The notes below the pieces were generated by a model that was given only the letters and a program-made list of their open reading frames with translations, did not search any database and was not told where the DNA came from. Positions 1-57,966 of a DNA stretch of 64,000 nt are shown here, piece by piece (positions within the stretch are counted from its first letter, which is position 1; each line of letters begins with the position of its first letter). The DNA lies in NCBI GenBank assembly GCA_018402565.1, contig JAGYIQ010000005.1:62001-126000 (forward strand), written 5' to 3'. The DNA is from Pirellulaceae bacterium (GTDB lineage: Bacteria > Planctomycetota > Planctomycetia > Pirellulales > Pirellulaceae). A program made the translations under genes and the position numbers.

Positions 1-2300
1 CCTACCTCGATCGACATCGCACGGCGTAGCGGAACGCGTCGCTGCTCGATACCCTAGAAAAACTCAACACCTTGACCGTCTTTCCTACCCTCGATCGGAC
101 GTAGCAGTGCGTAGCGGAACGCGTCAGCGTTTCGATACCCGAGAAAAACCATCCCCGCGGACCGTCTTTCCTACCCTCGATCGGACGTAGCGACGTGCGT
201 AGCGGAACGCGTCAAGCGTTTCGATACCCTAGAAAAAACTCAACACCGTGGACCGTCTTTCCTACCCTCGATCGGACGTAGCAGCGTGCGTAGCGGAACG
301 CGTCAAGCGTTTCGACACCCGAGAAAAATCTCAACACCGTGGACCGTCTTTCCTACCCTCGATCGGACGTAGCGACGTGCGTAGCGGAACGCGTCAAGCG
401 TTTCGATACCCGAGAAAAAACTCAACCCCGCGGACCGTCTTTCCTACCCTCGATCGGACGTAGCGACGTGCGTAGCGGAACGCGTCAAGCTGCTCCGATA
501 CCCGAGAAAAAGCTCAACACCGCGGACCGTCTTTCCTACCCTCGATCGACGTAGCGCATGCGTAGCGGAACGCGTCGGGCGTTTCGATACCCGAGAAAGC
601 TCAACCCTGTCGACCGTCTTTCCGTACCCTCGATCGGACGTAGCGACGGCGTAGCGGAACGCGTCGGCCGCTTCTGATACCCGAGAAAAACTCAGCCCCG
701 TGGACCGTCTTTCCTACCCTCGATCGGACGTAGCGGCGTGCGTAGCGGAACGCGTCAAGCGTTTCGATACCCGAGAAAAAACTCAACACCGCGGACCGTC
801 TTTCCTACCCTCGATCGGACGTAGCGACGTGCGTAGCGGAACGCGTCGTTGCCTCGATACCCGAGAAAAAGCTCAACCCCCGGACCGTCTTTCCGTACCC
901 TCGATCGGACGTAGCGACGTGCGTAGCGGAACGCGTCAGCTGCTTCGATACCTCGAGAAAAGCTCAACCCCGCGGACCGTCTTTCCTACCCTCGATCGGA
1001 CGTGTAGCGAGCGTGCGTAGCGGAACGCGTCAAGCGTTCTCGATACCCGAGAAAAAGCTCAACCCCTTCGACCGTCTTCCGTACCCTAGATCGGACGTAG
1101 CGACGTGCGTAGCGGAACGCGTCAAGCGTTTCGATACCCGAGAAAAAGCTCAACCCCGCGGACCGTCTTTCCTACCCTCGATTGGACGTAGCGACGTGCG
1201 TAGCGGAACGCGTCAAGCGTTTCGATACCCGAGAAAAAGCTCAACCCCTTCGACCGTCTTCCGTACCCTAGATCGGACGTAGCGACGTGCGTAGCGGAAC
1301 GCGTCAAGCGTTTCGATACCCGAGAAAAAAACCATCCCCGCGGACCGTCTTCTGTACCCTAGATCGGACGTAGCGACGTGCGTAGCGGAACGCGTCAAGC
1401 GTTTCGATACCCTAGAAAAAACTCAACACCGTGGACCGTCTTTCCTACCCTCGATCGGACGTAGCAGCGTGCGTAGCGGAACGCGTCAAGCGTTTCGATA
1501 CCCGAGAAAAAGCTCAACCCCGTGGACCGTCTTTCCTACCCTCGATCGGACGTAGCGACGTGCGTAGCGGAACGCGTCAAGGCTTCGATACCTGAGAAAA
1601 ACTCATCACCGGGCGGACCGTCTTTCCTGCCACTCTAGATCGGACGTAGCGACGTGCGTAGCGGAACGCGTCAAAGCGCTTCGACACCTGAGAGAAAAGC
1701 TCAACCCCGCGGACCGTCTTCCTACCCCTGGGATCGGACGTAGCGACGTGCGTAGCGGAACGCGTCAAGCGTTTCGATACCCGAGAAAAAGCTCAACCCC
1801 GTGGACCGTCTTTCCTACCCTCGATCGGACGTAGCGACGTGCGTAGCGGAACGCGTCAAGCGTTTCGATACCCGAGAAAAAACTCAACACCGCGGACCGT
1901 CTTTCCTACCCTCGATCGGACGTAGCGACGTGCGTAGCGGAACGCGTCAAGCGTTTCGATACCCGAGAAAAAGCCCAACCCCGCGGACCGTCTTTCCTAC
2001 CCTCGATCGGACGTAGCGACGTGCGTAGCGGAACGCGTCAAGCGTTTCGATACCCGAGAAAAAGCTCAACCCCGTGGACCGTCTTCCGTACCCTAGATCG
2101 GACGTAGCGACGTGCGTAGCGGAACGCGTCAAGCGTTTCGATACCCTAGAAAAAACTCAACACCGTGGACCGTCTTTCCTACCCTCGATCGGACGTAGCA
2201 GCGTGCGTAGCGGAACGCGTCAAGCGTTTCGACACCCTAGAAAAATCTCAACCCCGTGGACCGTCTTTCCTACCCTCGATCGGACGTAGCGACGTGCGTA
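1..2300 (+). repeat. Tandem array of ~25 REP units, 91-bp period, left flank of RAYT
   Basis: About 25 near-identical units follow one another with a 91-bp period. Each carries the tetranucleotide GTAG followed by an 8-bp hairpin: CGGAACGC, loop GTCAA, GCGTTTCG (one G-T wobble). GTAG at the foot of a short imperfect hairpin is the classic arrangement of REP sequences mobilised by RAYT transposases. The rest of each unit (GATACCCGAGAAAAA, the CTCAACCCC segment, ACCGTCTTTCCTACCCTCGATCGGAC) varies by point changes and small indels. All units here face the same way, towards the RAYT gene at 2382-2990. Reading frames open in all three frames because the unit is GC-rich and not a multiple of three; none looks like a real protein. 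The array continues off the left edge of the window. Confidence 0.9.
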
Positions 2301-2324
2301 GCTGGGCCCGAGTCTTATCAAACT

Positions 2325-2352
2325 GCTCGAAATGCTTGACGCATTCCGCTAC
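2325..2352 (-). repeat. REP core, inverted orientation, with A-T stem pair
   Basis: A single REP core lies between the left array and the RAYT gene, in the opposite orientation to the left array. Read on the minus strand it is GTAG, then CGGAATGC, GTCAA, GCATTTCG. Compared with the left-array consensus, both partners of one stem pair have changed (C-G to T-A), so the hairpin is kept. Confidence 0.8.
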
Positions 2353-2381
2353 CCAAGTGGCAAAGTCTTATCACGTTGCAC

Positions 2382-2990
2382 TCAGTTACCAAACTCACCA
2401 TCGTCAAGTTGCCGAGAGGGATCGGGAACTCTGAAGCATTGCGTACGACGCAAGAAAGCTAGCGTCCGCAAAATCTCACGCCACGAACCTTCCTCAAAAA
2501 GACGCAATCGACAAGCACCTGGCAACAAGCACCCCGTATACGGATAAGTAGCAAATCCACCCAAAGGAACTAATTGCTTTCGTTCTGGGTTCCTCGCAAT
2601 GTAATCGACGACGTCCTCGATCGCGTTCTGCTCCAATTCGTTTCCCTTAAAAACGTGGTCGTATGACTGACGTTGAAAACTATAGCCGATACGCTGCAGC
2701 GAATCGTTCATATCCAGCCTAAATCGCTGCATGGCTGTCAGCTGATTCGAGGTTTCCGCCAGCCCTACCCACAACAAGTGCATGTGATCGGGCATCAAAC
2801 AAAAAATGGGGCAAGCCAATTGATAGCGGAACGCCGTGTGGGTCAGAACCTCACGAAATCGGTAGAGTAGCTTTGCATCCAACCATCCCACTCGCCGTTC
2901 ATCAATCGCCAGTATCCAATGCACCCATGCCGTTCCGCAGTAGTTCGGCCGGGGCAAGCGTTTCAGTCTTGTAGGCTTCTTTCCATCCAT
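2382..2990 (-). CDS. REP-associated tyrosine transposase (RAYT, Y1/HUH family)
   Basis: The protein has 202 residues with an ATG start. It carries the HUH metal-binding motif His69-Met70-His71 in MPDHMHLLW. A downstream helix with YDHVF (110-114) and DYIARNP (129-135) follows, where Tyr130 is the likely catalytic tyrosine. These are the hallmarks of the RAYT branch of IS200/IS605-like Y1 transposases, which cut single-stranded REP hairpins next to a GTAG-type tetranucleotide. The gene sits alone between two REP arrays of opposite orientation, as expected for a REPtron in which the enzyme acts on the neighbouring repeats. No frameshift or internal stop is visible, so the enzyme could be active. 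The C-terminal tail after about residue 165 is less conserved and runs up to the repeat junction. That the substrate is the flanking repeats is inferred from position and motif. Confidence 0.88.
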   Translation of the reverse strand: MDGKKPTRLKRLPRPNYCGTAWVHWILAIDERRVGWLDAKLLYRFREVLTHTAFRYQLACPIFCLMPDHMHLLWVGLAETSNQLTAMQRFRLDMNDSLQRIGYSFQRQSYDHVFKGNELEQNAIEDVVDYIARNPERKQLVPLGGFATYPYTGCLLPGACRLRLFEEGSWREILRTLAFLRRTQCFRVPDPSRQLDDGEFGN

Positions 2991-3093
2991 ACGCGTATTG
3001 TATGCATTTGCCGCTCGTCTTTGGAACCCCCGGACTCATTCCGCTACCGCGGCAAAGTCCGATCAAACTGCTCGAAACGCTTGACGCATTATT

Positions 3094-3211
3094 GATTTTT
3101 CCGTAGCGGAACGCGTCAAGCTTTTCGATTGACGAGAAAACGCCGTGTTATTCCCGATTTTATTGAAACGGGCCGCAATTTCTCGCGTAAGTCTGGAAAA
3201 ACCAAGAAGCC
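3094..3211 (+). repeat. Dispersed 118-bp REP-headed repeat, copy A
   Basis: The segment starts with GATTTTTCC, then GTAG and the REP hairpin (one mismatch in the stem). A tail rich in GAAAACGCCG and AGTCTGGAAAAA follows. The same head-plus-tail arrangement is found at 57523-57641 with scattered substitutions, so the mobile or copied unit is longer than the REP core alone. It is the only clear forward-facing REP on this side of the RAYT gene. Confidence 0.75.
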
Positions 3212-3752
3212 ATTGACGCATTCCGCTACCCAAGGGGCAAAGTCTTATCGTACTGCACGAAACGCTTGACGCATTCCGCTACCCACGGGGCCCGAGTCCG
3301 ATCATACGGCTCGAAACGCTTGACGCGTTCCGCTACCCAAGGGGCCCGAGTCCGATCATACTGCTCGAAACGCTTGACGCGTTCCGCTACCCACGGGGCC
3401 GAGTCCGATCACACTACACGAAACGCTTGACGGGTTCCGCTACCCAGGTGGCCCAGTCCGATCACACGGCTCGAAACGCTTGACGCGTTCCGCTACCCAC
3501 GGGGCGAACGTCCGATCACACGGCACGAAACGCTTGACGCGTTCCGCTACCCACGGGGCGAAGTCCGATCACGCTTCACGAAACGCTTGACGCGTTCCGC
3601 TACCCACGGGGCAACGTCCGATCACACGGCACGAAACGCTTGACGCGTTCCGCTACTCATTGGGCAAAGTCTGAACTGGGTGATCGAAACGCTTGACGCA
3701 TTCCGCTACCTCCGCTGTCGAATCTGATCTCACTACTCGAAATGCTTGACGC
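3211..3752 (-). repeat. REP array of ~11 units, ~54-bp period, right flank of RAYT
   Basis: About eleven REP cores read on the minus strand (plus strand CGAAACGC, TTGAC, GCGTTCCG, CTAC) with a period of about 54 bp. They are separated by a short linker such as CCACGGGGCGAAGTCCGATCA. The core is the same as in the 91-bp array but the linker is unrelated, so two kinds of array have grown from one core. Units at 3258-3282 and 3684-3708 have a T-G wobble at the stem pair that is C-G elsewhere and T-A at 2325-2352. The array ends just before the stop codon of the metal-binding lipoprotein gene at 3764. Confidence 0.88.
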
Positions 3753-3763
3753 GTTGTTCAAGT

Positions 3764-57506: not shown

Positions 57507-57522
57507 TCCCACAGGTCTGGTC

Positions 57523-57641
57523 GATTTTTCCGTAGCGGAATGCGTCAAGCATTTCGATTGAGGCGAAAACGCCGCGTTTTCGCGCGATTTTCTTGAATCG
57601 AGCGGCGAATTCGTGAGCGAGTCTGGAAAAATCAACAAGCC
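57523..57641 (+). repeat. Dispersed REP-headed repeat, copy B (no RAYT nearby)
   Basis: The copy has the GATTTTTCC head, GTAG at 57532-57535 and the hairpin CGGAATGC-GTCAA-GCATTTCG at 57536-57556. The AGTCTGGAAAAA tail is shared with 3094-3211. The stem base pair that is C-G in the main array is T-A here on both sides. Confidence 0.8.
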
Positions 57642-57966
57642 CCACGGGTACCAAGTTGACGGGTGCCGGTCCTGCGGGCCCGGACTTCGGGTCGTTACGA
57701 TTGTGGCGACCCGGCCCGCACCCCGGCCCCGAATTCGCGTCAACCCATGACTAGGGAGGGACCTCCGCTCAACTACAATAAAAGGTAGTTGGCAGAAGAC
57801 CTCCCTTTTTCTGTCGCCCGACTGAGAAAATTTTGTCGCCGACCCGCCCGTCTGCGGGTATACCCGGATTGGTGGCGGCCTGACACCAGTGGTTTGGCCC
57901 CGGTGGTTTGGCCCCAGCTACCACGGCCCCGACTGAGATCCCTCCCGAGCAGGAACCTTGTTGCCC
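57642..57966 (+). terminator. Intergenic region with large stem-loop terminator
   Basis: AGGGAGG (57753-57759) pairs with CCTCCCT (57800-57806). It encloses a perfect CAACTAC/GTAGTTG hairpin and is followed by a T-run to about 57811, so transcripts from upstream should end here. The rest is the leader of the secretion ATPase gene. Confidence 0.6.

Follow-up and report, generated by a model that had tools for sequence, protein, structure and literature searches.

Two opposed arrays of GTAG-tagged hairpins surround a RAYT gene at positions 1-3762 of the window (the 64,000-nucleotide stretch analyzed here, G000:C169:62001-126000, from a 7.18-Mb draft genome in 223 contigs), and the locus belongs to a known kind, the REPtron, with unusually long head-to-tail arrays. 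It comprises one copy of a putatively domesticated Y1 (HUH) transposase gene, flanked on either side by the GTAG-tagged hairpins that would be its cognate REPs; we found here an HUH/Y1 protein with the TnpA_REP fold, a GTAG/GTRG foot, and multicopy REPs flanking tnpA. We consider it highly probable that the locus works as a REPtron in which the RAYT seeds REPs, tandem duplication grows the arrays, and a separate element with TIRs spreads the core. The least expected part is this last component, a REP-carrying, REP-targeting MITE.

The core consists of GTAG and an 8-bp hairpin (CGGAAYGC-GTCAA-GCRTTTCG), and direct reading together with pattern searches confirmed it where the initial annotation had described it. 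Dense cores do occur on both sides of the gene, although the number given there (about 36) rises to about 40 when full and partial copies are counted. Loose-threshold matches numbered 49 in the window and 0, 0, 2, 0, and 0 in dinucleotide shuffles. The core folds into an 8-bp stem (-6.8 kcal/mol), and pairing is kept at both variable positions of this stem in 45 of 61 distinct cores (shuffled mean 19.8, maximum 32). Rfam models matched only two tRNAs over the window. The genome-wide core search proposed in the initial annotation yielded 339 copies at ≤3 mismatches (reversed-pattern control, 0), which are dispersed over the genome as well as in arrays, as mapped by pattern counts and sampled loci.

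The left head-to-tail array (positions 1-2300, plus strand; pattern search and direct reading) has 25 copies of a 91-bp unit in the window, with cores spanning 26-2231 at a period of 91 bp. It crosses the window edge and begins at about window position -784 (~785 bp outside), where nine further copies bring the total to 34, and it includes private degenerate units at 472-1017. A T-type REP (CGGAATGC-GTCAA-GCATTTCG; 2328-2352, minus strand, pattern search) lies just downstream of the RAYT gene (2382-2990, minus strand), and upstream of the gene are a degenerate REP (3023-3047, minus strand, pattern search) and a REP without GTAG and 5' arm (3073-3090, minus strand, direct reading). The latter borders a degenerate copy of the 129-bp TIR element (3091-3211, plus strand), which sits inside a REP of the right array and carries the single plus-strand core of the right side (3103-3127). 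The right head-to-tail array (3212-3762, minus strand; 53/54-bp unit) comprises the interrupted half-REP (core at 3205), nine full REPs at 3258-3709 with a period of 53/54 bp, and a truncated one at 3738-3762.

These had been regarded as two array types that share one core and have unrelated linkers. Two unit lengths and one core are indeed present, but unrelated linkers can be ruled out, since the 24 nt preceding each core share GATCGGAC-x16-GTAG in both arrays and the 91-bp unit corresponds to a 53-bp unit plus 38 bp between two copies of TACCCTMGA. Left and right units also form inverted repeats of 45 nt with as much as 91% complementarity. Units of 53 bp with a 28-nt CCCTAGA linker were found at four other loci (C1:34k, C1:508k, C35, and C79). 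Because the 91-bp unit is this linker form with 38 bp added, 53 bp is the likely basic unit length, from which the left array would have been derived and re-amplified: an expansion by 38 bp between two copies of CCCTAGA would have given rise to the 91-bp unit, and amplification of this unit would have followed.

We infer that the head-to-tail arrays were lengthened by ordinary tandem duplication of the 53-bp unit, through unequal exchange or slippage. This route is favored by duplicated multi-unit variant blocks, such as a private three-unit variant set that is duplicated inside the 26-copy array on C1. Alternatively, the RAYT may build the arrays itself: two same-strand REPs would act like the left and right ends (LE and RE) of IS200/IS605, and a unit of 53 or 91 nt, excised as a circle of single-stranded DNA, would be reinserted beside a REP, with one unit gained per round. 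Same-orientation REPs with GTAG guides do mimic LE and RE, the RAYT is surrounded by arrays both at this locus and in several relatives, and a CT occurs in CCCTAGA a few nucleotides 3' of the hairpin in four of four distant 53-bp arrays and in some left units, TnpA_REP being able to cleave CT 5' or 3' of the REP (PMC8266576). Nonetheless, we regard this route as rather unlikely: 53-bp-unit arrays are also located far from any RAYT (C1, C35, and C79), the variant blocks are duplicated as expected from slippage or unequal exchange, and the right array lacks CCCTAGA, yet still has nine copies.

The RAYT gene encodes an intact TnpA_REP-like protein of 202 aa with the HUH motif H69-M-H71, the catalytic Y130, and N134-P135. 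Across an alignment of 21 family proteins, the histidines (H69-x-H71) are invariant and Y130 is near-invariant, and Y130 and N134-P135 correspond to the TnpA_REP active site. The protein scored 22.4 bits against Pfam Y1_Tnp, just below the cut-off of 23, and 35 bits (E 9e-9) against NCBIfam REP_Tyr_transpos, below the equivalog cut-off of 80, which is a naming threshold and not a mechanistic criterion; all 21 aligned members matched the latter model. While a single-sequence PDB search with the window RAYT gave no match, a family profile matched E. coli TnpA_REP (4er8, E 6e-4) with HUH and Y-x3-N-P aligned, and an AlphaFold model (pLDDT 92) had 4er8 as its best Foldseek match (E 8e-8, probability 1.0), followed by the IS608 and ISDra2 transposases. 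Besides the two scores below cut-off, a point against the assignment is that W94, conserved beside the E. coli guide contacts, is replaced by F in the window protein. The best named homologues are from Pirellula, Rhodopirellula, and uncultured planctomycetes.

By close homology, the genome contains one copy of the RAYT, and no repeated unit of gene plus ends was seen. None of 13 other Y1_Tnp matches in the genome is densely flanked by cores, ruling out these genes as owners of the core. Adjacent pairs of Y1_Tnp domain matches, likewise without dense cores, occur at G000:C158:35810-36580 and G000:C180:441942-442574 and are possibly fused or duplicated Y1 genes. Single-stranded DNA recognition of GTAG plus hairpin and CT cleavage are known for the E. 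coli, S. maltophilia, and Marinomonas proteins (PMC8266576). By analogy, the window RAYT most likely binds a single-stranded REP through GTAG guide and hairpin; its predicted substrate is single-stranded DNA with GTAGCGGAACGCGTCAAGCGTTTCG, which it would cut at a nearby dinucleotide (CT in the studied relatives) before rejoining the strands, such that REPs would be seeded and recombined near the gene.

Comparison with other genomes of the family illustrates a pairing of hairpin and protein. Repeated GTRG hairpins flank 30 of 32 RAYT loci examined (window locus included), and the flanking hairpin sequence shifts with RAYT subclade. Near homologues (59-66% identity) mostly have cores of the CGGAACTC-GTCAA-GAGTTTCG class with compensatory stem changes, and homologues with ~50% identity have different GTRG hairpins (GGATCTT-GCTA-AAGATCC or CTGGGCCC-x5-GGGCTCAG). 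The inverted doublet is the layout in many relatives, whereas head-to-tail units dominate in the window genome. A close RAYT is present in 57 of 241 family genomes. The core was found in 18 of 18 genomes with a near RAYT (≥59% identity), each with at least four copies (median 54), compared to 30 of 184 genomes in which no RAYT homologue was detected at E<1e-20 (median 0; Fisher P 3e-13, without phylogenetic correction). The core is therefore not equally abundant in relatives with and without the gene, and the REP/RAYT assignment made in the initial annotation is supported by motif, fold, REP-flanked homologues, and this co-occurrence. However, among the genomes without a homologue at E<1e-20, sixteen have 20-265 cores each, possibly as remnants. 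Judging from these sequences, the REP appears specific to the RAYT clade, with orphan REPs in some genomes. Three genomes (G146, G236, and G241) have 265-615 cores and a RAYT that is distant or absent, representing possible orphaned REP populations. Another (G015) carries three RAYTs (L076, L089, and L093), one with REPs of the CGGAACTC class in 110-bp tandem doublets, another with the GGATCTT-GCTA class, and a third with no recognizable GTAG hairpins nearby.

The majority of inspected dispersed non-array cores in the window genome lie within a 129-bp non-coding element with 18-bp TIRs (GGGCTTGTTGATTTTTCC-GTAG hairpin-...-GGAAAAATCAACAAGCCC), and TIR-core junctions number 214 against 339 cores genome-wide. 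In the window, for example, one copy (57514-57642, plus strand, pattern search) has its REP at 57532-57556. Among 45 distinct copies, 25 have an exact 4-bp target duplication (shuffle mean 7.5, maximum 16), with TCAA/TTGA, derived from the GTCAA loop of the REP, as the commonest sequence, and the left flank is a REP half in 24 of the 45, compared to 10 of 20,000 random sites. The 164-bp forms mostly consist of one copy nested in the loop of another. The element is short and non-coding, with TIRs, target duplication, and many copies, as is characteristic of a MITE. Moreover, its TIRs and 4-bp duplications are, on sequence grounds, marks of DDE-type transposition, and for the majority of dispersed cores they led us to reject an origin as RAYT products. 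The element is probably non-autonomous and would be moved in trans by a DDE-type transposase, although none of the 17 DDE_Tnp_1 matches in the genome, the only family searched for an autonomous partner, has paired TIRs, and these candidates were rejected.

We somewhat favor the interpretation that a DDE-type MITE has acquired a REP hairpin and targets REP loops, those of its own copies included. With one REP aboard and a preference for REP loops, it would have carried the core to sites across the chromosome, and its insertions would have interrupted array copies. If true, the selfish hairpin of an HUH/RAYT system has become both the cargo and the landing pad of a second transposition system, and the window genome records a burst, confined to one species, that produced nested REP-MITEs and REP arrays. 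At C1:508k (L057:5161-6615; G000:C1:508161-509615), 26 tandem 53-bp REP units lie between two TIRs, an array that looks like the amplification of a single REP within one 129-bp element. Given the DDE-type marks and the TIR-borne dispersed cores, the high core count in this genome is weak evidence for RAYT activity; together with the 16 core-rich genomes without a RAYT homologue at E<1e-20, this means that RAYT action cannot be read from copy number alone.

The same data could suggest that the core travels chiefly with the TIR element and that the RAYT beside the arrays is incidental in the window genome. The large share of TIR-core junctions and the frequent target duplications are consistent with such a reading, as is the restriction of the multicopy element to one of 241 family genomes (379 TIR matches here, at most 2 in any of the 240 others). 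However, we consider it improbable, as many relatives have the REP class without the TIRs, the REP class tracks near RAYTs, nearly all RAYT loci are flanked by REPs, and the window arrays are not made of TIR elements but include the single degenerate copy at 3091-3211. The idea that simple minisatellites or an assembly artifact account for the arrays, with no functional link to the RAYT, could draw on the private degenerate units of the left array and on the risk of misassembled tandem repeats in a 223-contig draft, but is very improbable given a conserved GTAG foot, stem covariation across genera, and the same anatomy at homologous RAYTs in independently assembled genomes. A REPtron with tandemly duplicated arrays and an independently mobile, REP-carrying element remains our preferred interpretation.

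The array/RAYT region is bordered by tatD and znuA, which are convergent. A congener (G002) has csrA, CN hydrolase, znuA, and tatD in the same order, with a znuA/tatD gap of 31 bp vs 4,691 bp here, and neither RAYT homologue nor core was found at this site; across its whole genome, no RAYT reached E<1e-20 and the core had four loose matches. This empty site and the lower GC content of the RAYT gene (51%, vs 62% elsewhere in the window) suggest that the region was gained in the lineage of the window genome; alternatively, it may have been lost in the congener.

Much of what surrounds these results is already published, namely REPtrons, planctomycete GTAG REPs, tandem groups, RAYT-side clusters, and REP-targeting insertion sequences (PMC3733652, PMC3116915, PMC6006769, PMC8266576, PMC1525189). 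The initial annotation's statements that such systems are known mainly from gammaproteobacteria and that a dense two-sided array of this size is apparently undescribed in a planctomycete were too strong, as GTAG REPs have been reported in Planctomycetes, including several families in R. baltica, with REPs reiterated in tandem together with flanking DNA (Di Nocera et al. 2013, PMC3733652). These families have in common with the window the GTAG tag, an 8-bp stem, complementary stem variants, a G-T stem pair, and tandem groups carrying flanking DNA, although the head-to-tail arrangement dominates at the window locus. Clustering of REPs next to RAYT genes and tandem arrays of REPs have likewise been published (PMC3116915, PMC3733652). 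In P. fluorescens SBW25, REPIN clusters adjoin each RAYT and same-strand REPs form evenly spaced arrays, but of at most 12 REPs, and inverted doublets dominate (Bertels & Rainey 2011, PMC3116915). REPtrons of groups 2 and 3 (E. coli, S. maltophilia, and Marinomonas; PMC8266576) share with the window locus the HUH/Y1 enzyme, the GTAG foot immediately at a short hairpin, and two-sided REPs, and a concentration of REPs near tnpA is likewise reported for Marinomonas; the window locus differs from them in its 34- and ~10-copy head-to-tail arrays around one gene and in a RAYT from a divergent planctomycete clade. Two other classes fit less well: IS200/IS605 insertion sequences are mobile, multicopy units of gene plus ends, unlike the single-copy RAYT, and the planctomycete-type class 3 TnpA-Y1 has Y----Q and a CnGA foot (PMC6006769), where the window has Y130-x3-N134 and GTAG.

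What is new is that most dispersed cores lie in a 129-bp TIR element with 4-bp target duplications and REP loops as its usual target. IS1397, ISKpn1, and IS621 likewise prefer REPs as insertion targets (PMC1525189), but the element described here is 129 bp, non-coding, bounded by TIRs, and itself REP-carrying, such that its copies nest in one another. No description of a REP-carrying, REP-targeting MITE was found in the literature searched, which is part of the whole. Its spread of most dispersed copies is a warning that REP copy number by itself is no proof of RAYT activity. More broadly, well-supported REP/RAYT pairing now extends to a large family of planctomycetes. The several RAYT clades in this family have distinct hairpins of their own and provide a natural data set for testing how RAYTs recognize REPs. 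Finally, across the 34 units of the left array (window -784 to 2231; L045:9216-12231), GTAG and the 5' stem arm show 0 changes in 408 cells, compared to 22 of 272 cells in the 3' arm and about 7-9% in the linker. Changes in the 5' arm are present in other arrays, unlike in this one, and its constancy may reflect selection, conversion, or an assembly effect.
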